Source of the DNA: Kiloniellales bacterium
GTDB taxonomy: Bacteria; Pseudomonadota; Alphaproteobacteria; Kiloniellales; JAKSBE01
Length of the DNA stretch: 64,000 nucleotides
Direction of reading: 5' to 3'
Assembly (NCBI GenBank): GCA_030066685.1
Contig: JASJBF010000038.1
Span: forward strand, 1-64,000
Positions 20,943 through 35,142 of this stretch are shown piece by piece; positions within the stretch are counted from its first letter, which is position 1, and each line of letters opens with the position of its first letter. A program made the translations under genes and the position numbers. A model generated the notes under the pieces. That model was not told the DNA's origin and made no database searches. It saw only the letters and a list, made by a program, of their open reading frames with translations.

Positions 20943-22514
20943 TCACGCCACGGGCGGGACCAGCGACGGCATGGCACGCTGGCGGCAATCGCTGCGCTCG
21001 CAGAGCCGGCAGTTGATTCCCACCGGGACCACCGTCTCGGGGTCGTCCCAGCTCAAACCCTCGCTGTAGACGAGCTCTTCCGCATATGAGAGGTCGCAGC
21101 CGATCCCGATCACATAACGGGTCTCGGGCTCCCCGTAGCCGCCACCTGGCTTTGTGATGCTGCGCGCCAGGCAGAAGAAGCGGCTGCCGCCCGGCATTTC
21201 GGCGACCTGGCGCAGGATCCGCCCGGGTGCGGCGCCGGCGGCGTGAAGGTTCCAACGCGGACAGACTCCGCCGTAGCGGGCAATCCGCAGCCCGGACCCG
21301 CCGAAGCGCTTGGAGACGTTGCCCGCGGGATCTATGCGGACGAAGTGGAAGGGAATGCCGCGCTGCCCCGGCCGTTGCAGGGTCGTCAGTCGATGGCAGA
21401 CTTGCTCGAAGCTGGCGCCGAAACGCTGCTGCAGGCGCTCCAGATCGTAGCGCAGCTCCCGCGCCGCAGTCACGAAGGGCTCGTACGGCAAGATCACCGC
21501 CCCCGCGAAGTAGGAGGTCAGGGCTTGGCGAAGCTTGGCGCCGGAGTCGCTGGCCGAAAGCGTCGTGCCTTCGATCAGCGGATCGAAGATGTGCCCGCAG
21601 CGCAGGGCGCCGATGCAGCGCGCCGTGTGGAAGGCCCGGCTGCTGGCCGGCAGGGCCTCGGAGAGGACGAGCCTGCCGCGAGCCTCGTCGAAAGCGGCCA
21701 CGCCGCCGGCGAGGTCCCGGTCGGCGCCGATCTCCACCGCGACGCCGCAGGCCGTCTCGAGATAGGCCGCGAGGGCAAACTCGAGCGGCCGGCCGGCGAG
21801 CTCCGCCTGGTCCCAGAGGGCCTCGGCCGCAGCTTCCAGTTCCGGGAAGTGATTGTTGTGGTTCTGGATGAAGTCCATCACATCGTCGACCGCCGAGGCC
21901 AGGCCGCCGAGGCCGGTGAGGTCTTCGCCCTTGGCGAAATCGACCATGCGGTCGACGGCCTGGTCCAGACGGCCGGTCTCCTTGACCAGAATCTCCAGGA
22001 ACCGCTGTCGCTGCGCCGCGTCCAGGTCGTCGTAGTCGCGCAGAATCTCCGAGAAGGAGCGGATCGAGGTGAGAACGGTCCTCAACTCGTGGGTCGAGGC
22101 CGAGATCAAGGCATCGTCGCTGAGTCTTTCGCTGACCGCGTCGAGGTCCGCGCGCAGATTGCGGTAGCCCTGGTAGAGCGCGATCATGGCCTGGCCCAGC
22201 ACCGGCGCCGCGCCGACCGCGTCGCTCAGATCCTTGGGCGCGAGTTCGAAGGAGGCGAAGAGCGGATCGCGGAGGATCTCGACGAGGTCGGTGACGATGC
22301 GCGCGTCCTCGTCCTCGGCAAAGACCTGCAGATCGACGTCGTAGCCCTCGGCCAGCTTCATCTGCAGCGAGCGGGTCAGGGGCCTCTGGTTGTGCTCGAT
22401 CAGATTGAGGTAGCTGGGCGAGATGCCCAGCCGCTTGGCCATGTCGACCTGAGTCACGCCCTGCGCACGGCGCAGCCGTCTGACCTTGCTCCCAAGATGT
22501 GTGCGATCGCTCAT
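20943..22514 (-). CDS. ScfR/RamB-type short-chain acyl regulator with an inserted HisKA segment
   Basis: This is a 523-aa XRE-type transcription factor. Residues 8-63 are an HTH (GVTQVDMAKRLGISPSYLNL). From about 215 on it follows the short-chain fatty acyl regulator family (RamB, PccR, MccR), ending with GINCRLCERSDCRQRA. The M78 peptidase-like middle lacks an HExxH motif (RAFHTARCIG). Family members are about 470 aa. Here residues 134-198 form a histidine-kinase dimerisation/phosphoacceptor helix pair with His142 in STHELRTVLTSIRSFSEIL, followed by ETGRLDQAVDRMVDFAKGE. No ATPase domain follows. By eye about 33 of 62 positions are identical, ungapped, to the HisKA of the symporter kinase at 29489-32251. 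It is divergent from a symporter gene with a 512-bp intergenic region. It likely controls acetate or short-chain acid uptake, and the insertion suggests phospho-input or hetero-dimerisation with the kinase. Confidence 0.85.
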   Translation of the reverse strand: MSDRTHLGSKVRRLRRAQGVTQVDMAKRLGISPSYLNLIEHNQRPLTRSLQMKLAEGYDVDLQVFAEDEDARIVTDLVEILRDPLFASFELAPKDLSDAVGAAPVLGQAMIALYQGYRNLRADLDAVSERLSDDALISASTHELRTVLTSIRSFSEILRDYDDLDAAQRQRFLEILVKETGRLDQAVDRMVDFAKGEDLTGLGGLASAVDDVMDFIQNHNNHFPELEAAAEALWDQAELAGRPLEFALAAYLETACGVAVEIGADRDLAGGVAAFDEARGRLVLSEALPASSRAFHTARCIGALRCGHIFDPLIEGTTLSASDSGAKLRQALTSYFAGAVILPYEPFVTAARELRYDLERLQQRFGASFEQVCHRLTTLQRPGQRGIPFHFVRIDPAGNVSKRFGGSGLRIARYGGVCPRWNLHAAGAAPGRILRQVAEMPGGSRFFCLARSITKPGGGYGEPETRYVIGIGCDLSYAEELVYSEGLSWDDPETVVPVGINCRLCERSDCRQRAMPSLVPPVA

Positions 22515-23026
22515 AGCCCGCGCCCACGGCCCCGGATTTTTACGAGATTTACAATTTGGCCATGGTTTCTCAGGGTCAATTTACACACCGAAAGGCTGAA
22601 AACCAAGGGTCTTGTTGACTGGGTTAACGAATTGTGGGATTTTTACAAGCAAGACCAAAAAGGATGCAGCCCGCTCTAAGGGCGATCTCTACCGGGGGGA
22701 GGCGACGCGCAAGGGAGACAGGAAGCTCCCCCGCGTCACGGGTGAAGGGCGGCGCTCACCAAGCTTGGCGGCGCCCATCGGATCACCCGGGCCATTCCCC
22801 CGATTCGCTGGAGCCGGCTGGCCGGTGTCACGGAGGCGTGACGCCGGCGGTCAAGGCTTGGACCCCTCCTTTCTGGTCGGCCCCGGAGGCGCGGCGCGTC
22901 GGCAGGTTCTGCCTTGCGTTGCCCGGCCGGGCGAACACTTGGGGAAGACCGCTGCGGCCCGGCACCTCTCGCCGGCCTCTCTGCGGTCAATGCTAGTCCG
23001 GACCCAATGGAGGGGAGACGGCAAAG
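22515..23026. promoter_or_regulatory. 512-bp regulatory intergenic region between regulator and symporter
   Basis: No gene is visible. The first 135 bp are unusually AT-rich and hold four same-direction TTTAC-type motifs: TTTTTACG 22537, ATTTACA 22547, ATTTACA 22579 and TTTTTACA 22640. GGATTTTTAC occurs twice, exactly 103 bp apart (22534 and 22637). TTGACT at 22615, with 17 bp to GATTTT, is a weak candidate symporter promoter that would leave a long leader containing the palindrome at 22822-22847. These are plausible operators of the ScfR-like regulator. Confidence 0.45.
22822..22847. promoter_or_regulatory. Inverted repeat upstream of the symporter gene
   Basis: CCGGTGTCACG-GAGG-CGTGACGCCGG has 11-bp arms with one mismatch. 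It lies 180 bp before the symporter start and could be an operator or a stable leader hairpin. Confidence 0.4.
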
Positions 23027-25018
23027 ATGGAAGCAAAAGTTGTTTGGTTGTTTGCCTTCGTCGGCATGTACTGGGCGTACTGCATCTTCTGGGGTGTCAA
23101 GGGCGCCCTGCAGGCCAAGACGGCGAGCGACTACTTCATCGCCGGGCGCCGCATGTCGATGTGGGTGTTCGTCCTGGCGGCGACGGCGACGTCGTTCTCG
23201 GGATGGACCTTCATGGGCCATCCGGGGCTCGTCTATCGAGACGGGTTCCAGTACGCCTACGCGTCCTTCTACACCATCACGATTCCCTTCACGGGGGTCA
23301 TGTTCCTGAAGCGGCAGTGGATCATCGGCAAGCGCTTCGGCTACGTCACGCCGGGCGAGATGCTGTCCGACTACTTCCGCGGCGACGCGATCCGGATTCT
23401 GACGGTGATCGTGGCCCTGCTGTTCTCGATCCCTTACCTGGGCGTGCAGCTCGGAGCCTCGGGCTTCCTGTTCAACGTGCTGACCATCACCGAAGGCAGC
23501 CCCGACGGCATCGTTTCCGCGACCGCGGGCATGTGGATCCTGTCCCTGGTGGTGCTGATCTACGTCGCCTCGGGCGGCCTGCGGGCAGTGGCCTACGTCG
23601 ACACCCTGCAGTGCATTCTGCTGGCGCTCGGCATCATTGTCACCGGTATCATCGCGCTCAACCTGATCGGCGGTTGGGGGGCCATCAACGAGGGCTTCGC
23701 AACCCTCGCGGCCAGCGACGTCGGCAAGTGGGGGGTCACCGAAGACGGCCACAACGCCTACTTCGCGATCCCGGGCGTGATCCAGTTCACCGCGGGACTG
23801 GGCAAGGAGACGCCCGTCGGCGGCCTCTGGACCGGCATCATGGTGCTGACCTACATGTTCGCCCTGATGGGCATCCAGTCGGCGCCGGCCTTCTCGATGT
23901 GGTCCTTCTCCAACACCGACCCGCGGCCCTTCGCGCCGCAGCAGGTCTGGGCCTCGTCCTTCGCGATCGGCTTGATCCTGTTCTTCTTCACCGCCTTCCA
24001 GGGCATGGGCGCGCATCTCCTTGGCGCCAACCCGGCGGTGAACGAGGCGGGATTAGCGATTTCGCAGATCCTCGACGGTGAGGCGATCGCCGCCAAACCA
24101 GACTCGCTGGTGCCCTTCTACTTCAACCAGATCGCGGACAGCCTGCCCTGGTTGGTGGGCCTGCTGGCGGTCTGTGCCCTGGCCGCGATGCAGTCCACGG
24201 GTGCCGCTTATATGTCGACGGCGGGCGCAATGCTCACCCGCGACCTCTACAAGCGCTACCTGAACCCGGGTGCCTCGCACACCACCCAGAAGCTCTTCGG
24301 TCGCTTGGGCGTGGCCTTCATCGTCCTCTCGGCGCTGATCGTCGCGACCTTCTCGCGGGACGCCCTGGTTCTCCTGGGCGGTCTGGCGGTGGCCTTCGGC
24401 TTCCAGATGTGGCCGTCTCTGGCCGCCGTGTGCTGGTTCCCCTGGATCACCCGTCAGGGTGCCACCTGGGGTCTGGCCGCGGGCCTGATCGCGGTCATCG
24501 CGACCGAGAAGATTGCCGTCGACCTGACCGGCGGGGCTCTGCCCTGGGGCCGCTGGCCTTGGACGATCCACTCGGCGGGTTGGGGCATCATCTTCAACCT
24601 GGGCGTCTGCGTCATCGTCTCGGGGATGACCCAGAACTCGGCCGACCGCGAGCATCGCATGAAGTTCCACAACTTCCTGCGCGAGCACGCGAGCCTGCCG
24701 GCTTCCAAGAAGGGCCTGGTTCCGGTGGCCTGGATCATCACCCTCGCGTGGCTGTTCTTCGGCATCGGCCCCGGTGCGGTGATCGGCAACACGATCTTCG
24801 GCGTCCCGGGCGACTCCTCGACCTGGACCTTCGGCATGCCGTCGATCTGGGTCTGGCAGATCCTGTTCTGGATCCTTGGCGTCGGCATGATGTGGTTCCT
24901 GGCCTACAAGATGGAGATGTCGACCGTTCCGGAACGGGAGATCGAGGCCTTGACCGAGGATATCGGCGATGTCCACGCGCCGGCCGAGCAGGCCGGTGCC
25001 GGAGGCGCCGCCGACTGA
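23027..25018 (+). CDS. Sodium:solute symporter (SSS family)
   Basis: This 663-aa inner-membrane transporter of the SSS family (related to ActP/PutP) has about 13-14 helices. Family landmarks are TASDYFIAGRRMSMW near residue 30, ATATSFSGWTFMGHPGLVYR around 50, LGVQLGASGF, and the sodium-site region CALAAMQSTGAAYMSTAGAM near 390. At 663 aa it is longer than ActP (about 550), with an acidic, Ala-rich C-terminal tail. GGAGGGGAGACGGC precedes the ATG. The neighbouring ScfR-type regulator and acetate-switch genes make a monocarboxylate such as acetate or propionate the likely substrate, which is inference. A strong terminator follows at 25051, so most transcripts are monocistronic. Confidence 0.93.
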   Translation: MEAKVVWLFAFVGMYWAYCIFWGVKGALQAKTASDYFIAGRRMSMWVFVLAATATSFSGWTFMGHPGLVYRDGFQYAYASFYTITIPFTGVMFLKRQWIIGKRFGYVTPGEMLSDYFRGDAIRILTVIVALLFSIPYLGVQLGASGFLFNVLTITEGSPDGIVSATAGMWILSLVVLIYVASGGLRAVAYVDTLQCILLALGIIVTGIIALNLIGGWGAINEGFATLAASDVGKWGVTEDGHNAYFAIPGVIQFTAGLGKETPVGGLWTGIMVLTYMFALMGIQSAPAFSMWSFSNTDPRPFAPQQVWASSFAIGLILFFFTAFQGMGAHLLGANPAVNEAGLAISQILDGEAIAAKPDSLVPFYFNQIADSLPWLVGLLAVCALAAMQSTGAAYMSTAGAMLTRDLYKRYLNPGASHTTQKLFGRLGVAFIVLSALIVATFSRDALVLLGGLAVAFGFQMWPSLAAVCWFPWITRQGATWGLAAGLIAVIATEKIAVDLTGGALPWGRWPWTIHSAGWGIIFNLGVCVIVSGMTQNSADREHRMKFHNFLREHASLPASKKGLVPVAWIITLAWLFFGIGPGAVIGNTIFGVPGDSSTWTFGMPSIWVWQILFWILGVGMMWFLAYKMEMSTVPEREIEALTEDIGDVHAPAEQAGAGGAAD

Positions 25019-26354: not shown

Positions 26355-26897
26355 TCAGGATCCGCGCAAGTCGGTTCGCGGCGTTGGGCGCAGTTCCTCT
26401 TCCGAGAAGAAGGGCGGCGTGACCGACGTGGCCGGCGCGCTCGGCTTGGCGGTGTCGACGGGCGCCGCCCGGGTCGCTGTCGCAGCGGTTCCATGGGTCG
26501 CGAAGTGGCTCACCAGGATGCCGCCGCCGACTGCCAGCATGATGACGCACAGCGCGATCGCCAGGCGCCGGCTGCCCAGCGCCGCGGCACGGTGGTACTC
26601 GCTGTCGTAGCGGTGGAAATAGGGATGCCGCGCATTCAGCTCGTCGCGTTCCTCGTGCTCCAGGACGCGGCGCGCGAAGTGCTTGGCCCAATGCGGAACC
26701 CGGTTCTGCATCATGAAGCCGTGGAAGATCGTATCGGTCTGGGCCTCCGGCATGTCGCAGCCGTGCCACTCGTAGTAGGCGAGCTGGAGCAACTGAAATT
26801 CGCCGATCTCAAGGATGTTCGCCGCATGGGCGATCAGCGCACGGTCTTCGTTTTCGTCCTGGTCCGGGCGGATCAAGGTCTGCAGGAAGTTGGGCAT
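26355..26897 (-). CDS. Single-pass membrane protein of unknown function
   Basis: This 180-aa protein has a helical N-terminal cytoplasmic domain (about 15-100, with ANILEIGEFQLLQLAYYEWH and ARRVLEHEERDELNARHP). One membrane helix follows at about 111-131 (RLAIALCVIMLAVGGGILVS), then a Thr/Ala/Pro-rich exterior tail. The ATG at 26897 has GGAGGG just upstream; a longer upstream reading frame was rejected. It is divergent from the CBS-DUF294 gene. I recognise no family. The His/Trp/Glu-rich cytoplasmic part (EYHRAAAL, QNRVPHWAKHFARR) looks conserved rather than random. Confidence 0.62.
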   Translation of the reverse strand: MPNFLQTLIRPDQDENEDRALIAHAANILEIGEFQLLQLAYYEWHGCDMPEAQTDTIFHGFMMQNRVPHWAKHFARRVLEHEERDELNARHPYFHRYDSEYHRAAALGSRRLAIALCVIMLAVGGGILVSHFATHGTAATATRAAPVDTAKPSAPATSVTPPFFSEEELRPTPRTDLRGS

Positions 26898-27119
26898 TTT
26901 CCCTCCGGTTCGTCGTGCAGGCCGCGCTTCCTCCAAAGGGTCCGATCCGGGCTCACAGATCCAGACCAAGGTTTTATCTGAACAACCCTTACAATTAGTA
27001 TAGTGCCCGGCGCGCCGAATCCCAGAGGCCTTGGGATCGGACTCTTTTCAAGTTCTCGGGAGCCGCCGCCGGCTTTGCGGCCGGGCCTCCGGAGCAGATC
27101 TTCGCGGGGAAGGGCCGGC

Positions 27120-28580
27120 ATGCAGTCGCAGACCAAGATCTTCTCTCAACTTGTTCGCGACTACATGCGCAAGGGGGGCCTCGTGCTGCCTGCGGAGACC
27201 ACCGTGGCCCAGCTGATCGCCGAGATGGTCCGGCGCAAGCGCACCAGCGCCCTGGTCACCGACCGCGAGGGCCGGCTCAGCGGCATCATCACCGAGCAGG
27301 ACATCACTCGCCGGATCGCCCTGCGGTGCAGCGGCGAAGAGCCGGCGACCGCGGTCATGACCGCGCCGGTCGAGAGCGTCAGCCGCGACGACTACCTCTA
27401 CGTGGCGATCGCGCGCATGCGGCGCTTCGGTTGGCGGCACATGCCGGTCACCGATCCGGAGGAGCGCCCGGTCGGAATCATCGATCTGAACGCGGCCCTG
27501 GCGGTCGCCGCGGAGCAGATCCTCCGTCAGATCGACCGGATCGTTCACGAGAACAGCCTGGACGGCCTGCGCGAGGTCAAGGCGGCCCAGGTCGAGGTCG
27601 CCGACGAACTGTTCCGCGACCGGGTCCCGGCACCGGAGATCCAGGCGGTGCTGAGCGACATCAACCGCGGCATCCATCGCCGCGTGATCCGGCGCAACCT
27701 GGCGGCGATGCGCGACACCGGCTGGGGCGAGCCGCCGGTGCCCTTCGCGCTGCTGATCATGGGCTCGGGCGGCCGCGGCGAGAGCTTCCTCTATCCGGAC
27801 CAGGACAACGGCTTCATCCTGGACGACTATCCCGACTCCGAGCACGAGCGGATCGACGGCTTTTTCATCGAGCTGGCCGAACGCATGACCCTGGAGCTCG
27901 ACCAGATCGGCTTTCCCTACTGCAACGGCTACGTCATGGCGACAAACCCGCTGTGGCGCAAGAGCCGCAGCCAGTGGGCCGCGCAGCTGCGCTACTGGGG
28001 CCGGAAGCGCAGCGAGATCGCGGTCCAGCTCTCGGACATCTTCTTCGACTTCACCTGCGGCTACGGCGACGCGAACATGGTCCGCGAGCTGCGCACCCGG
28101 GTCACCGAGATGCTGCGAGCGAGTCCCGGGTTCCTGCAGGAGATGCAGGCCGAGGTGCGTAACCAAGGCGTCGCCCTCGGCTGGTTCGGGCGCCTGCAGA
28201 CCGAGACCGAGAAAAAGGAGTTCAAGGGCAAAATCAACCTCAAGCATCGCGGCACCCTTCCGCTGGTGTCCTGCGTCCGGCTGCTGGCGTTGCGCGAAGG
28301 GGTGGAGGCGACCTCGACCCTGGGGCGGATCGGCGCCCTGCACGACAAGGGGGTCTTCGACCGCGATACCCAGGACTACCTCAAAGGCGCTTTCCGCCAC
28401 ATTACCGGCCTGTTGCTGCGCCAGCAGATCGCCGACTTCAAGGCCGGCGAGAGCGTCAGCAACTACACCCACCCCGACGATCTCTCCGAACGTGAAAAGG
28501 ACATCCTGATCGATTCCTTCCGGGCGATCGAAGGGCTGCGCGACCGGGTCTACGCGGAGTTCACCGGCGACGTCTTCTGA
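27120..28580 (+). CDS. CBS-domain DUF294 nucleotidyltransferase
   Basis: This is a 486-aa protein. Residues 12-130 hold two CBS domains (AETTVAQLIAEMVRRKRTSA, then RLSGIITEQDITRRIA; MTAPVESVSRDDYLYVAIAR), which usually bind adenine nucleotides. Residues 150-340 are a DUF294 nucleotidyltransferase domain of the GlnD/GlnE type. The active-site loop is GSGGRGESFLYPDQDNGFIL, with Gly215-Ser216 and metal ligands Asp227 and Asp229. A helical substrate-binding domain (to 486) follows. It may transfer a nucleotidyl group to a protein in response to energy status; the target is unknown. DUF294-CBS genes next to acetate-type symporters and DnaQ-like exonucleases occur in other proteobacteria, as here. 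GGGGAAGGG precedes the ATG. Confidence 0.88.
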   Translation: MQSQTKIFSQLVRDYMRKGGLVLPAETTVAQLIAEMVRRKRTSALVTDREGRLSGIITEQDITRRIALRCSGEEPATAVMTAPVESVSRDDYLYVAIARMRRFGWRHMPVTDPEERPVGIIDLNAALAVAAEQILRQIDRIVHENSLDGLREVKAAQVEVADELFRDRVPAPEIQAVLSDINRGIHRRVIRRNLAAMRDTGWGEPPVPFALLIMGSGGRGESFLYPDQDNGFILDDYPDSEHERIDGFFIELAERMTLELDQIGFPYCNGYVMATNPLWRKSRSQWAAQLRYWGRKRSEIAVQLSDIFFDFTCGYGDANMVRELRTRVTEMLRASPGFLQEMQAEVRNQGVALGWFGRLQTETEKKEFKGKINLKHRGTLPLVSCVRLLALREGVEATSTLGRIGALHDKGVFDRDTQDYLKGAFRHITGLLLRQQIADFKAGESVSNYTHPDDLSEREKDILIDSFRAIEGLRDRVYAEFTGDVF

Positions 28581-29488: not shown

Positions 29489-32251
29489 CTACTTCGCGGC
29501 GGTCCCGAAGGCGGCCCGAGCGGCTTCGGGATAGGGCAGGGTGAAGGCGAAGCGGGCGCCCGCGCCGGGCTCGCTCTCGACCCAGATCCGGCCACCGAAG
29601 TGCTCGACGATCTGCCGGCAGATCGGCAAGCCCAGGCCGGTGCCCTGGAGGTTGTGCGCCAGGTCTTCGCGCAGGGCCTGGAACTTCTCGAAGGCGCGGC
29701 GCTGCTCCTCGCGGGACAGGCCGGCGCCGTTGTCGGCGACCACCACCAGGAGATCCGCCGCGCGCGGCTGCGCCTCGACCGTCACCCGGCCGGCCTCGGG
29801 ATCGCAGAACTTCACCGCGTTGGACAGCAGGTTCACTGTGACCTGAACCAGCCGGTCCCGGTCGGCGTGGACCTCGGGGAGACGGTTCGGCAGGCCCACC
29901 TCCAGCTCGACCCCGCGCTCCCGGAACAGGGCGTGGGTTGCGGCGATCGCCTCCTCGATCGCCGCTCCCGGTTCGAAGTCGGCCATGTTCCACTCCATGC
30001 TGCCGGCCTCCATCTTGGCCAGGTCGAGGATCTGGTTGATCAGCCGGGTCAGGCGCTCGCTCTCCTTGATGATGACGTTAAGGAACTCGCCACGCTGGGC
30101 CAGGTCGAGCGAGGGATTGTCGTAGAGAATCTCGCTGAACGAGCGGATCGAGGTCAGCGGCGTGCGCAGCTCGTGGCTGACCGTCGAGATGAAGTCGTCC
30201 TTCAAGCGGTCCAGTTCGGTCAGGCGCCGGTTGGCGGCGCGCAGCTCGGAGTAGGCGTGCTCCAGCTCGCTCGACTTCTGCTCCAGGCGGTGGCTGTACT
30301 CGATCACCTGTGAGGTCTCGTCGAGGATCTTCATGACCTCGTCGATCCGGATCATCTCGCCCTTGACGACGGAGGCGAGCATGACCCTCGCCGAGGCCGC
30401 CCCGATCGCGCCCGCCAGCAGTCGCTCGGTGAAGTGCAGCAGCCTGGAATCAGCCTCCTCCAGCTTGTCCAGGTTGAAGTTGCGCTCCGCGGCATAGCGG
30501 GCGAAGGCGCGGTCGGCGGGCTGCTTGCCGAGAAAGCGCACGACCACGTCGTAGACGTCGGCGAAGGTCGCGGTGCCGCGCCAAAGGCCCGAGCCGCGCT
30601 GGCTCTCGCTGTGGCGGAAGACGTCGACGAAGATCGCCGCCTGGATCCGCTCCAGGGCGGTCTCCCGGCCGAAGAGCGAGCCGACGATGTAGCCGCCGAT
30701 ATTGCCGAGCAGGCTCCAGAAAAGGGCGTGGGTGACGTGGTCCAGGCCCTCCAGGCCAAAGAGCCGGTAGGGATGCAGGAGCTCGATCCCGAAGGGCCCG
30801 AGCTCGACAAAGGTGATGCTGAGCCAGCCGGAGCGGGCCATGGACGGCAGGAAGAGGGTGTAGGCCCAGAGCGCGAAGCCGAGGCTGAGGCCGATCAGGG
30901 CGCCGGTCCGGGTGCCGCCTTTCCAGAAGATGCCGCCGATGATGGCCGGGGCGAACTGGGCCGCGGCGGCGAAGGAGACCAGGCCGATGGTGACCAGGGC
31001 GTAGGACTCGCCGATGTAGCGGTAGTAGATGTAGCTCATCGCGAGAATCACGATGATGCTGCCGCGCCGGATCGCCAGCAGCAGGCCGGTCAGGTCGCGT
31101 TCCTCGGACAGGCGCAGCCAGGGCATGCGCAGCAGGGTCGGCATGACCAGGTCGTTGCAGACCATGGTGCTCAGCGCGATGGTCGCGACGATCACCATGC
31201 CGGTGGCCGCGGAGAGGCCGCCGATGAAGACCAGGAGCGCCAGGCCGTCCCGCTCGGCGGCAAGCGGCAGGGTGAGCACGAAGGTATCGGCATCGACGCT
31301 GCCGTCTGGGAACTGCATCAGGCCGGCCAGCGCGATCGGCAGCACGAAGATGTTGATCACCAGCAGGTAGAGCGGGAAGAGCCAGACCGCCTTGTGCAGG
31401 TGCCGCTCGTCGACGTTCTCGACCACGGTCACTTGGAACTGCCGCGGCAGGCAGATGATCGCGGCCATCGACAGCAGGGTCAGCGTCACCCACTGGCTGT
31501 AGCCGCCGTCGCTGTCCACGCTGAAGAGGCGGGCGATCTGGGGCTCGGCGCCGGCCACGGCGAAGAGGTCCGCGAAGCCGCCGTAGAGGCCGAAGGTGAC
31601 GAAGATCCCGACTGCGAGGAAGGCGAGCAACTTGACGATGGATTCGAAGGCGATCGCCGCGACCATGCCCTCGTGATGCTCGGCCGCGTCGATCTGGCGG
31701 GTCCCGAAGAGGATCGTGAAGATCGCCAGGGCGGTGGTCACCAGGAAGGCGGTATCGGCGGGGAAGGGCACCTCGAAGATGGGTGGCGTGGCTTCGAGGT
31801 TGGGATAGTGCAGCAGCAGGTTGAAGCTGGTCGAGACGGCTTTCAACTGCAGCGCGATGTACGGCATGATCCCGACCACGGCGATCACGGTGACCAGGCC
31901 CGAGATCATCGTGCTCTTGCCGTAGCGTGAGGAGATGAAGTCGGCGATCGAGGTGATCCGATTGACCTTGCTGATCCGCAGGATCTTCGCCAGCACGAAC
32001 CACCAGAGCACGAAGGTCAGGGTCGGGCCGAGGTAGATCGGCAGGAAGGCGACCCCGTCCTGGGCCGCCCGGCCGACGCTGCCGTAGAAGGTCCAGGAGG
32101 TGCAGTAGACCGCGATCGACAGCGTATAGATGTAGGGGTTGGCGATCAGGCTGCGGCCCTCTTGGGCGCGCTTGTCGCCGTAATACGCGATCGCGAAGAG
32201 CAGGCAGAGGTAGGCGCAGGCGACGGGCAGGACAACCCAGCCGGACAGCAT
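29489..32251 (-). CDS. Symporter-histidine kinase fusion (CrbS-like)
   Basis: This is a 920-aa sensor kinase. Residues 1-520 are a full SSS-family symporter domain with about 13 helices (start GWVVLPVACAYLCLLFAIAY). Around 560-640 is a STAC-like segment (FADVYDVVVRFLGKQPADRA). A coiled coil leads to HisKA with the phospho-accepting His693 (STVSHELRTPLTSIRSFSEI) and a complete HATPase: N box NLLSNAVKF (about 805), DNGAG (about 837), GTGLGLPICRQ (about 868). This is the architecture of CrbS, which with CrbR controls acetyl-CoA synthetase and acetate use in Vibrio and Pseudomonas. No PAS domain is evident. The upstream small membrane gene ends 3 nt before this start. The nearest partner is the receiver-only protein at 34765-35142, not a LuxR-type CrbR. 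Confidence 0.92.
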   Translation of the reverse strand: MLSGWVVLPVACAYLCLLFAIAYYGDKRAQEGRSLIANPYIYTLSIAVYCTSWTFYGSVGRAAQDGVAFLPIYLGPTLTFVLWWFVLAKILRISKVNRITSIADFISSRYGKSTMISGLVTVIAVVGIMPYIALQLKAVSTSFNLLLHYPNLEATPPIFEVPFPADTAFLVTTALAIFTILFGTRQIDAAEHHEGMVAAIAFESIVKLLAFLAVGIFVTFGLYGGFADLFAVAGAEPQIARLFSVDSDGGYSQWVTLTLLSMAAIICLPRQFQVTVVENVDERHLHKAVWLFPLYLLVINIFVLPIALAGLMQFPDGSVDADTFVLTLPLAAERDGLALLVFIGGLSAATGMVIVATIALSTMVCNDLVMPTLLRMPWLRLSEERDLTGLLLAIRRGSIIVILAMSYIYYRYIGESYALVTIGLVSFAAAAQFAPAIIGGIFWKGGTRTGALIGLSLGFALWAYTLFLPSMARSGWLSITFVELGPFGIELLHPYRLFGLEGLDHVTHALFWSLLGNIGGYIVGSLFGRETALERIQAAIFVDVFRHSESQRGSGLWRGTATFADVYDVVVRFLGKQPADRAFARYAAERNFNLDKLEEADSRLLHFTERLLAGAIGAASARVMLASVVKGEMIRIDEVMKILDETSQVIEYSHRLEQKSSELEHAYSELRAANRRLTELDRLKDDFISTVSHELRTPLTSIRSFSEILYDNPSLDLAQRGEFLNVIIKESERLTRLINQILDLAKMEAGSMEWNMADFEPGAAIEEAIAATHALFRERGVELEVGLPNRLPEVHADRDRLVQVTVNLLSNAVKFCDPEAGRVTVEAQPRAADLLVVVADNGAGLSREEQRRAFEKFQALREDLAHNLQGTGLGLPICRQIVEHFGGRIWVESEPGAGARFAFTLPYPEAARAAFGTAAK

Positions 32252-32254
32252 GGC

Positions 32255-32527
32255 TCAGCCCCCGTCTCGGGCCACGGATTCCTGCCTGGCCGAGTCCGGC
32301 CGTCCGGCCAGGGGACGGTGGCCGGGGACCCGCCGCCAGCGTTCCGAGGTCAGGGCGGTCAAGCCGATCAGCGCGGCCCAGGCCGCGAAGAGATAGATGT
32401 AGAGCAGCGGGATGCCGAAGAGCGAGCCCGGCCCGTCGAAGATCGACAGCAGGGGTGGGCTCAGCAGGACCAGGCCCAGAAGAAACAGGGCCAGGTGGCG
32501 TTCGCCTCTGGTTCCGCGCCTCGGCAT
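32255..32527 (-). CDS. Small two-helix membrane protein coupled to the symporter kinase
   Basis: This 90-aa protein has helices at about 11-28 (LALFLLGLVLLSPPLLSIF) and 36-59 (LFGIPLLYIYLFAAWAALIG), followed by a basic, soluble tail. Its stop lies 3 nt before the start of the symporter kinase. In layout it resembles the small subunits (YjcH/DUF485, DUF4212) encoded ahead of SSS symporters, and I recall similar small proteins ahead of CrbS-type kinases. It is probably an accessory subunit of the kinase's transport domain; this is inference. Confidence 0.75.
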   Translation of the reverse strand: MPRRGTRGERHLALFLLGLVLLSPPLLSIFDGPGSLFGIPLLYIYLFAAWAALIGLTALTSERWRRVPGHRPLAGRPDSARQESVARDGG

Positions 32528-32624
32528 GCGCTTGGTCCTCGATGGTCCATCGCACTTGGGTCTGACCGGCCAAGTCTACACCTGCCGGCGAAGCTTGGCA
32601 CTGGGGAGGAAATGGTTGGAATCA

Positions 32625-34736
32625 CTAAAATTCCTCCTGCCGCCGCCGGATCTCGACCATCTCCTCGGAGGCATGGAAGGCGGCACCCAGGGTGGTGATG
32701 CCGCGCGCCTCGAGCAGCTTGAGCATGGCCAGGAAGACCTCGGCGGTGACCATTGTGTCCCCCATCGCGGTATGCCGGCCCCAGACCTCGACACCCAGAC
32801 GCTCGGCGATCGCGTCCAGGGTGTGGTTCTGCTCCTCCGGATGCAGCCAGACCGAAAGCAGCAGGGTGTCCAGCACCGGATTGTCGAAGACGACGTTGCA
32901 GGCGCTTTCCTTGAGCCGAAGGAACTTCATGTCGAAGGCGGCGTTGTGGGCGATCAGCACCGCGTCGGCGGCGAAGAGGTGGAACTGGGGCAGGACCGTC
33001 TGTGCGGCGGGCACGTCCTGCACCATCTCGTCGGTGATCCCATGAAAGCGGATCGAGGCCTTGGGAATCGGCTTGCCCGGGTTGACGAGGCGTTCGAAGG
33101 TCTCGCCGCTAAGGACTCGTCCGTTCACGATGCGCACCCCGGCGATCTGGATGATCTCGTCGCCGCCGGAGGGGTTGAGGCCCGTGGTCTCGGTATCGAA
33201 GACGACGTAGGACAGCTCGGAGAGCACGCGGTCTCCGGCCGCCGCCAGCGGGGCCTGCCGCTGGAACAGGTCGAAGTCGTAGAACTCCGGCCGCGGCGGC
33301 AGAGCGCCTGGCGCCTCGGGGCCGCCCGGCGGCACGCCCGACGGCAGGGCGAGACGCAGGCCCGGCTTGGCCCCTCGATCGCCCAGGGACCACACCTCGG
33401 CACCGTGCTGCTCGAGGACCTCCTGGAGCGAGCCTGCGGTCGCCGAATCCTCGAGCCGCTCTTGGAGCCAGCGATCCAGCTCGCGCTGGGCCAGCGGTCC
33501 GCTCGGCCAACGCAGGTCGAGGGCGCTGTGGTTGTCGAGTTGGACCGCCTCCAGGGTGAAGCTCTTCGGCTTCAAGGACGCCGACAGCTTCAGGATCAAG
33601 CGGTTCAGGACCCATTGCAGGGCGAGGCTGTCGCCCCGAAGCCAGACCGCGCCGCCGCCGACCTCAAGGCGTGGGCCGGCCTCGGCCTCGAGCTCATCCT
33701 TCAGGGAGTCGAAAAGATCCTGAGCCAAGACGTTGCCCAGCAGCAGGGCTTCGGACTTGAGCGCTTCGTAGGACTCGGTCAGCGTCTCCAGCTGATCGCT
33801 GAGCCGCAAGCTCTCCTCGGCGACCACGCGGTCGAAGGCGCGCCGGCGCGCGCTGTCCAGCTCCGGGTGCTCGATCAACATCTCGACCGCCGCCCTCAGG
33901 TTGGCGAGGGGGGCGCGAAAGCCCTCCGTGGCCCGGCGCAGCAGAAGGTCCCGTCTGGCAAAGCGGGCCCGCTCCCGTCCGGCCTCGGAAAAGACCACCA
34001 CGTAGCCCCGCGCCGCGCCCTGGGAATCGAAGATCAAGGTCATCCGGCCATGCAGGAGATTGCTGGTCGTCTTGGCCAGGCACAGCAGCTCGGCGGTCTC
34101 GGGATGCTGCGCCGAAGCCTCGCCCGTGGCGCGCCGGCGCAGGCGGCTCAGGGCGTGGCAAACCGCCTCCTCTCCGACCAGCTCGAGCACCGAGCGGCCC
34201 AGGCCCGTCGTCTCGGGGGCCTCCAGGGCCAGCTGCGCGGCCTTGTTGTAGAGCAGGATCTTGTGATCGAGGTTGCAGACCACGACCGCCTCGCTGAGGT
34301 CGCGCAGGATCGCTTCCAGCCAGCCGCGCTGCTCTTCGCTGCGGGCGCTGGCGCCCGCCATGGCTTTGACCACCTCGCTGCGCGCCGTCCTCAGCTCGCG
34401 GCTGACTTCCTTGATGGCCTCGTGCAGCGGGCCCAGGGTATGGGCCTCGGCGATCTCTACGCCCGCCTCGGCGCCGGCCCGGCTGACCGTATGGAGCCGG
34501 CTGGTCAGCCGCGACAGCGGACGCACCAGACGTTGTTCGACGATCACCCAGGCCACCGCCGTGGCGGCGACCAGGCCGAGCGCCAGAACGACGCCAAACA
34601 GCAGGACCATCCCGGGTAGGTGAGACTCGCTACCGCTCAGGGTCACGAAGGCGAAGCTGGCAAGCCCCAGGACCGCACTCAGCCCCAAGATGCCGAGGGC
34701 GAGGAAAATCAGGACAAAAAAGCGCCGTGTCGTCAT
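32625..34736 (-). CDS. Membrane HAMP-PAS-kinase-like-DnaQ exonuclease fusion
   Basis: This 703-aa protein has an unusual domain order. Two helices (about 5-30, 43-66) enclose a very short periplasmic loop. A HAMP-like linker (67-120) leads to a PAS-like domain (about 138-250, [20 protein letters not shown]). A degenerate HisKA helix pair (262-325) has Glu271 where the phospho-His belongs ([18 protein letters not shown]). A wasted ATPase-like region (340-465, [15 protein letters not shown]) lacks the G boxes. The C-terminal 505-675 is a complete DEDDh 3'-5' exonuclease of the DnaQ type: Asp514 and Glu516 ([20 protein letters not shown]), Asp602 ([10 protein letters not shown]), His655 and Asp660 ([16 protein letters not shown]). 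It is thus a membrane-tethered exonuclease with a pseudo-kinase input. The ATG at 34736 starts the first helix. It lies between the receiver and the symporter kinase in one operon. Confidence 0.88.
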
Positions 34737-34764: not shown

Positions 34765-35142
34765 TCAGCTCTCCCGGTCCTCCAGGAAGGTCTTGACGCG
34801 CTCCACAAGCTCGCGGGTCGAGAAGGGCTTGGTCACGTAGTCGTCAGCACCCAGGGCCATGCCCTTCTCCCGCTCCACTTCGCGGCCCTTGGCGGTCAGC
34901 ATGATGATCCGGACATCCTTCCACTCGGGCTTGGCGCGGATGATCTGGCAGAGGTCGTAGCCGTCGCGCTTCGGCATCATGACGTCGAGCAGGACGAGAT
35001 CCGGGACCTTGTCTGCCATGGCCTTGAGCGCAGCTTCGCCGTCGGCCGCGACGCGGACCTCGAACCCTGCCTGTTCCATCAGGAACTCCAGGGACATCAC
35101 GATGTTGGGCTCGTCGTCCACGACCAGGACGGAATGCGACAT
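34765..35142 (-). CDS. Receiver-only response regulator
   Basis: This is a 125-aa single CheY-like receiver domain. The acidic pocket is LVVDDEPN (Asp9, Asp10), the phospho-accepting site is Asp53 ([16 protein letters not shown]), the switch is Thr83 (MLTAKGRE), and Lys105 is in [13 protein letters not shown]. There is no output domain. It is the first gene of the minus-strand run with the exonuclease fusion and symporter kinase, 28 bp ahead of the former, so it is the natural partner of that kinase. A phospho-shuttle, binding to the HisKA-bearing ScfR-like regulator or the exonuclease fusion, is possible; that is inference. Confidence 0.92.

Follow-up and report, generated by a model that had tools for sequence, protein, structure and literature searches.

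The window analysed here is a stretch of 64,000 nucleotides (64 kb) of a Kiloniellales contig. An ORF at 20943..22514 on the minus strand encodes a 523-aa protein with an XRE-type helix-turn-helix (HTH), a HisKA/DHp segment, an M78-like domain and a ScfRs domain, which we named DHp-ScfR. It is the sole ScfRs-domain protein of this genome. An SSF solute symporter gene (23027..25018, plus strand) is divergent from it. A CBS-DUF294 nucleotidyltransferase-like protein (27003..28580, plus strand) is a member of the neighbourhood kept in closer relatives. The 920-aa SSF (SLC5)–HisKA–HATPase sensor kinase (SSF-kinase; 29489..32251, minus strand) is the putative signal source, and Pfam detected no REC domain in it, the C-terminal receiver being absent. 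The single-domain receiver RR1 (34765..35142, minus strand; 125 aa, no output domain) is the putative carrier from the kinase to DHp-ScfR. The distance from RR1 is 2.5 kb to the kinase and 12 kb to DHp-ScfR, and all three genes fall within 15 kb. The genome contained no closer RR1 paralogue, the next best match having 43% identity.

Two other proteins of the neighbourhood were recorded. The 735-aa ORF at 32412–34619 (plus strand), between the SSF-kinase and RR1, had no Pfam match; L120, L121 and L123 keep it in the same gene setting. The 204-aa protein at 26355–26969 (minus strand) had no significant Pfam match and was kept with the SSF symporter and a TPR protein in many relatives.

In DHp-ScfR, the HTH spans residues 6–64 (22323..22499, minus strand), with HTH_31 (residues 6–63) and HTH_3 both above the Pfam cut-off. 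The M78-like domain (Peptidase_M78, residues 277–377) and the ScfRs C-terminal domain (PF09856, residues 378–518) were assigned by Pfam to 20961..21686 on the minus strand, the latter scoring 197.9 bits against a cut-off of 24. The DHp (HisKA) segment, identified by Pfam, the structural model and structure matches, occupies residues 134–198 (21921..22115, minus strand). The codon of His142 is at 22089–22091 (minus strand), and Thr146 is at H+4. An earlier note made from the sequence had proposed a HisKA helix pair with His142 in this regulator, and the analysis bore this out. Pfam HisKA matched residues 136–197 (E 8.7e-11, 42.2 bits versus a cut-off of 26.9), and a HisKA scan of the whole genome independently recovered the same segment with 46.2 bits. 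AlphaFold 2 modeled it with moderate confidence as a two-helix hairpin (helices 135–160 and 166–194), and it resembled solved HisKA structures, such as that of T. maritima HK853 (3dge, E 8.6e-6). No HATPase_c domain was found by Pfam after the DHp of DHp-ScfR, as the note had also read; the M78-like/ScfRs half comes next. The match to the HisKA of the neighbouring SSF-kinase, counted by eye as about 33 of 62 positions, was 34 of 65 on alignment.

The C-terminal part of DHp-ScfR folds like M. tuberculosis PrpR (6cyy/6cz6/6cyj), with TM-scores of 0.86–0.87 by target length and 39–40% identity. The RamB equivalog NF038139 gave 393.9 bits, below its curated cut-off of 700, and the match was in two stretches split by the insert. 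DHp-ScfR is a ScfR regulator, presumably of acetate-type metabolism, that carries a genuine kinase-derived phosphoacceptor (DHp) segment. Similar to the family members RamB, PrpR/MccR and PccR, it has an N-terminal XRE-type HTH, an M78-like/ScfRs C-terminal half and the PrpR fold. A difference is that it contains about 65 extra residues as the DHp, and that it keeps company with RR1 and the SSF-kinase. Our searches of open-access papers turned up no account of a DHp in ScfRs; an earlier mention elsewhere may exist.

The protein and an alignment served as queries against relatives in the order and the class, and a species-wide genome set was also scanned. We collected 78 DHp-ScfR sequences from many families across Alphaproteobacteria, counting identical proteins once and keeping near-duplicates. 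Named carriers were Novispirillum itersonii (L047 and L050), Paracoccus ferrooxidans, Paracoccus pantotrophus and a Neorhizobium; a Bauldia metagenome-assembled genome also had one (L067). ScfRs were of two sharply distinct kinds, with a DHp at about residues 133–193 or with nothing there. None of the 70 ordinary ScfR loci from the species-wide set had a DHp, in agreement with the earlier suggestion that known ScfRs lack such a segment, and their proteins offered nothing to align at that place. Chance similarity and an ordinary ScfR linker were rejected as explanations by the HisKA score, the structure matches and these 70 loci.

A tree was built from 47 distinct ScfR DHps, the DHps of 50 SSF-kinases and those of 24 other kinases of the window's genome. 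All 47 ScfR DHps formed one clade (100/99) among the SSF/SLC5-type kinase DHps and apart from the 24 other kinases. The clade sat among SSF-kinases with a helix 1 like TSIRSFSEIL; with only 65 columns, many other forks of this tree were unresolved. A ScfR tree built without the DHp separated DHp-ScfRs from ordinary ScfRs by one branch (SH-aLRT 99). The simplest reading of these sequence comparisons is that a DHp was captured once, anciently, from the SSF-kinase lineage. Because the ScfR DHps are nested among kinases and ordinary ScfRs have no such domain, we infer that the capture went from kinase to regulator. The earlier note had the phosphoacceptor copied from the neighbouring kinase. A relationship to DHps of the SSF-kinase type, encoded 7 kb away, was confirmed; a recent local copy was rejected, as the ScfR DHps form one clade spanning many families. 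Nor was the window's DHp nearer to the kinase in its neighbourhood than to the other SSF-kinases. When the tree was rooted on ordinary ScfRs, H-E-L-R-T proteins of the window type came near the base of the DHp-ScfRs, and therefore loss of the acid looks secondary.

The sequence H-E-[LV]-R-T-P was invariant in the 50 SSF-kinases. His142 had been expected to be conserved among orthologues, and the His was kept in 71 of the 78 DHp-ScfRs; 75 had T or S at +4, and 74 had E at +14. The acid at +1 (E) was present in just 11, the window's E143 among them; elsewhere the position held R (28), Q (21), K (7), A (6), S (4) or G (1). The proline of HELRTP at +5 was found in 0/78. R+40, R+43 and L+44 of helix 2, invariant in the 50 kinases, were not kept, while the hydrophobic positions of both helices were. 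Of the two activities of HisKA domains, only that of the kinase needs the acid next to His, and only that of the phosphatase needs T/N at +4 (Willett and Kirby, PMC3510030).

The His was replaced in 7/78 proteins, in about five lineages. The replacements were F (L259 and L277), Q (L264 and L278), Y (L046 and L039) and N (L067). The idea that His was lost only where kinase and receiver were gone found no support: SSF-kinase and RR1-like genes were present elsewhere in the genomes of F and Q variants that were checked (G322, G226, G100, G176 and G280). Since these partners persist in the checked genomes despite the replaced His, a phosphate on this residue cannot be required in every member.

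In EnvZ, helix-1 positions +7, +8, +11, +12, +14 and +15 coevolve with receivers (PMC2991266). At these six positions, the ScfR and the kinase of the same locus were 75% identical, compared with 36% at all other positions. An identity this high was reached by 0.2% of random position sets; within helix 1 alone the contrast was modest, with 3.8% of sets as high. The residue pattern fits a domain that may no longer autophosphorylate yet would still meet a receiver.

RR1 (about 125 aa) adjoined DHp-ScfR in most loci, and the usual gene order was ScfR–RR1–SSF-kinase. All 51 receivers in the search interval beside DHp-ScfR were on the same strand and just downstream, mostly at 16–192 bp; negative gaps arose where an ORF had been extended to its earliest possible start. 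The ScfR–RR1 pair also occurred at kinase-less loci (L130, L131, L141, L159, L160, L162 and L163), and every one of their genomes that was searched had an SSF-kinase elsewhere. The tightest partner of DHp-ScfR is the stand-alone receiver RR1.

The SSF-kinase gene was linked to DHp-ScfR in many loci. An SSF-kinase was present in 45 of 46 genomes with DHp-ScfR versus 7 of 32 without it (Fisher 4e-13, overstated because genomes were treated as independent); the one DHp-ScfR genome without it was an 82% complete assembly. In a wider set, all 22 near-complete genomes with DHp-ScfR had an SSF-kinase. Neither RR1 nor an SSF-kinase was found in the flanks of ordinary ScfRs (0/70 loci), and the difference from DHp-ScfR loci gave Fisher values of 4e-11 for the kinase and 4e-8 for RR1, with the same overstatement. 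Several SSF-kinase/RR1 pairs occurred without DHp-ScfR, and therefore RR1 must have further outputs.

Two particular arrangements were observed. In G013, G019 and G023 (L120–L122), each locus had two RR1-type receivers of different receiver subgroups, one after ScfR and one after DUF294. In Paracoccus ferrooxidans (L280, CP038202.1), the three-gene unit comes after another histidine kinase/response regulator pair, and its SSF-kinase is annotated merely as a sodium:solute symporter.

The receivers beside DHp-ScfR were compared with kinase-only receivers. They differed at helix-1 positions 14 and 17, on the DHp-binding side; shared ancestry could also yield these differences. E/D at one helix-1 position was found in 51 of 52 receivers beside DHp-ScfR versus 9 of 27 kinase-only receivers. 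The correlation between the receiver and the ScfR DHp was positive, and the rest of the receiver showed it too (rho 0.69 versus 0.78), so that much of it can be put down to shared ancestry. Receiver–DHp coevolution was dropped as a signal of its own, the correlation being inseparable from phylogeny.

TGTAAA boxes, a candidate ScfR operator, lie in the intergenic region between DHp-ScfR and the symporter (22515..22648, minus strand), as a tandem at 22538–22554 and further boxes at 22578–22586 and 22640–22648. The density of such boxes upstream of DHp-ScfR genes was about 35 times that of the remaining parts of the loci; they had a strong orientation bias and lay mostly 20–70 bp ahead of the start. 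Similar to this, about half of the ordinary ScfRs sampled (36 of 68) had them upstream of their own gene; the ScfRs of these bacteria therefore probably share TGTAAA as a general operator. The strict form KTGTAAAWW occurred twice in the 64-kb window, against 0.06 expected. The tandem TTGTAAAW...GTAAAW occurred once in the 6-Mb genome, in the DHp-ScfR promoter and before the divergent SSF symporter. The classical TTTGCAAA box was not found in the window. A regulon prediction with TGTAAA pairs gave just three genome sites beyond the ScfR promoter, none of them beside an obvious target. Judged from these boxes, DHp-ScfR likely regulates its own gene and the divergent SSF symporter from the shared intergenic region. 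In the upstream regions of the Azospirillum ScfRs L069, L097, L101 and L111, very long ORFs were seen, which are probably open antisense frames of a divergent gene.

ScfRs have been described as one-component acyl-CoA sensors (PMC6765138, PMC10370305). The SLC5/STAC kinases CrbS, CbrA and RpuS signal via DNA-binding response regulators, and CrbS controls acetate use (PMC5715377, PMC9100948). The window resembles CrbS/CrbR, CbrA/CbrB and RpuS/RpuR in having SSF fused to HisKA–HATPase near a symporter gene. CrbS and RpuS differ in being hybrid kinases that carry the REC at their C-terminus, whereas in the window the REC is a separate 125-aa protein; and where the CrbS/CrbR type uses a DNA-binding response regulator, the output proposed here is a ScfR with a DHp. 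Spo0F–Spo0B, CckA–ChpT and SdrG–PhyT also have a DHp-type protein without kinase activity that takes its signal from a receiver, which for DHp-ScfR is proposed. The architecture of DHp-ScfR, a DHp with no ATPase domain, would suit a phosphotransferase of the Spo0B, ChpT and PhyT type; the His of such proteins is kept in 71 of 78 members and replaced in 7. A difference is that those proteins hand phosphate to a second receiver, whereas the DHp here sits inside the transcription factor itself. In Paracoccus denitrificans, the ScfR-network gene Pden_1785 clusters with two-component system genes (PMC10370305). From the paper's description, Pden_1785 is very probably a member of the DHp-ScfR group; the DHp segment and its mechanism are not mentioned there.

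We propose a three-part path from the SSF-kinase through RR1~P to DHp-ScfR and its promoter, combined with acyl-CoA sensing, and consider it somewhat favoured. By analogy with CrbS, CbrA and RpuS, the SSF-type membrane kinase would sense or transport a small carboxylate-like substrate and would phosphorylate the stand-alone receiver RR1. RR1~P would then bind the kinase-derived DHp hairpin of DHp-ScfR, with or without passing phosphate to His142, and this may alter the oligomeric state or the DNA binding of the regulator. As in PrpR and RamB, the C-terminal part would also sense acyl-CoA. Seven DHp-ScfRs lack the His, and docking of RR1~P is therefore the minimal common denominator. A precedent is the single-domain receiver SdrG, which hands phosphate to the phosphotransferase PhyT (PMC5898713). 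CoA esters convert the Paracoccus RamB tetramer into a dimer (PMC10370305); since a ScfR ligand can shift the oligomeric state, RR1~P on the DHp dimer could use the same switch.

The earlier note had proposed a direct kinase-to-promoter route, in which the SSF-kinase and DHp-ScfR would form a mixed DHp bundle or the kinase's ATPase domain would phosphorylate His142 in trans, with no response regulator. The kinase-derived phosphoacceptor segment behind this proposal stood. Descent of the ScfR DHp from the same kinase lineage and the linkage of the kinase gene in many loci agree with direct contact, as do the window protein and L042, L123, L124, L125 and L256, which keep H-E-L-R/L-T and have no receiver adjoining the ScfR. 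The route itself fared less well. The +1 acid is absent in 67/78 proteins, the +5 proline is lost in all, the kinase-invariant helix-2 residues are not kept, and RR1 is the tightest partner. ScfR–RR1 pairs persist at kinase-less loci, and the SSF-kinase is membrane-bound. We consider direct contact improbable. The window is a less typical form of the group: H-E-L-R-T is kept and no receiver adjoins. With E143 intact and RR1 12 kb away, direct contact is less unlikely there than in the rest of the group.

The loss of the kinase acid with T/S kept at +4, a K-minus, P-plus signature, could instead indicate a phosphatase or sink that strips phosphate from RR1 and so reports the metabolic state back to the kinase pathway, rather than receiving a signal from it. 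HisKA E-to-A/Q mutants indeed retain phosphatase activity (PMC3510030). On that reading RR1, for which no output is known, would be left with no target, and an output role accounts better for a DHp stably fused to a DNA-binding domain. The His may also be kept more strictly than phosphatase activity alone needs, and we regard this role as quite improbable. The conserved hydrophobic positions and the loss of His in several lineages would also suit a hairpin captured simply as a four-helix-bundle dimerisation module with no signalling partner. Such a module leaves the conservation of exposed receiver-facing positions and of Thr+4, the RR1 linkage and the kinase co-occurrence unexplained, and ordinary ScfRs work without a DHp; dimerisation alone seems very unlikely to us. 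On the preferred path through RR1~P, a class-wide alphaproteobacterial design can be formulated, which we judge evenly balanced: a one-component metabolite-sensing transcription factor would have taken a kinase DHp once, for a stand-alone receiver to land on or relay through, and the two-component output would be a DNA-binding protein that carries a kinase-dead DHp in place of a receiver.

Two-component systems ordinarily have the receiver joined to an output domain. Here the arrangement appears inverted, with the receiver free and a kinase-type DHp fused to the DNA-binding protein. A HisKA domain in a protein that is not a kinase is a trap for automatic annotation. The culturable carriers Novispirillum itersonii, Paracoccus ferrooxidans and Paracoccus pantotrophus make the idea directly testable. 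If true, it would give a plausible target to many output-less single-domain receivers beside SLC5-type kinases, and one regulator would receive both a carboxylate-like signal from outside and an acyl-CoA signal from inside. The DHp-ScfR/RR1 architecture suggests an unrecognised route that joins outside nutrient and inside metabolite signals.
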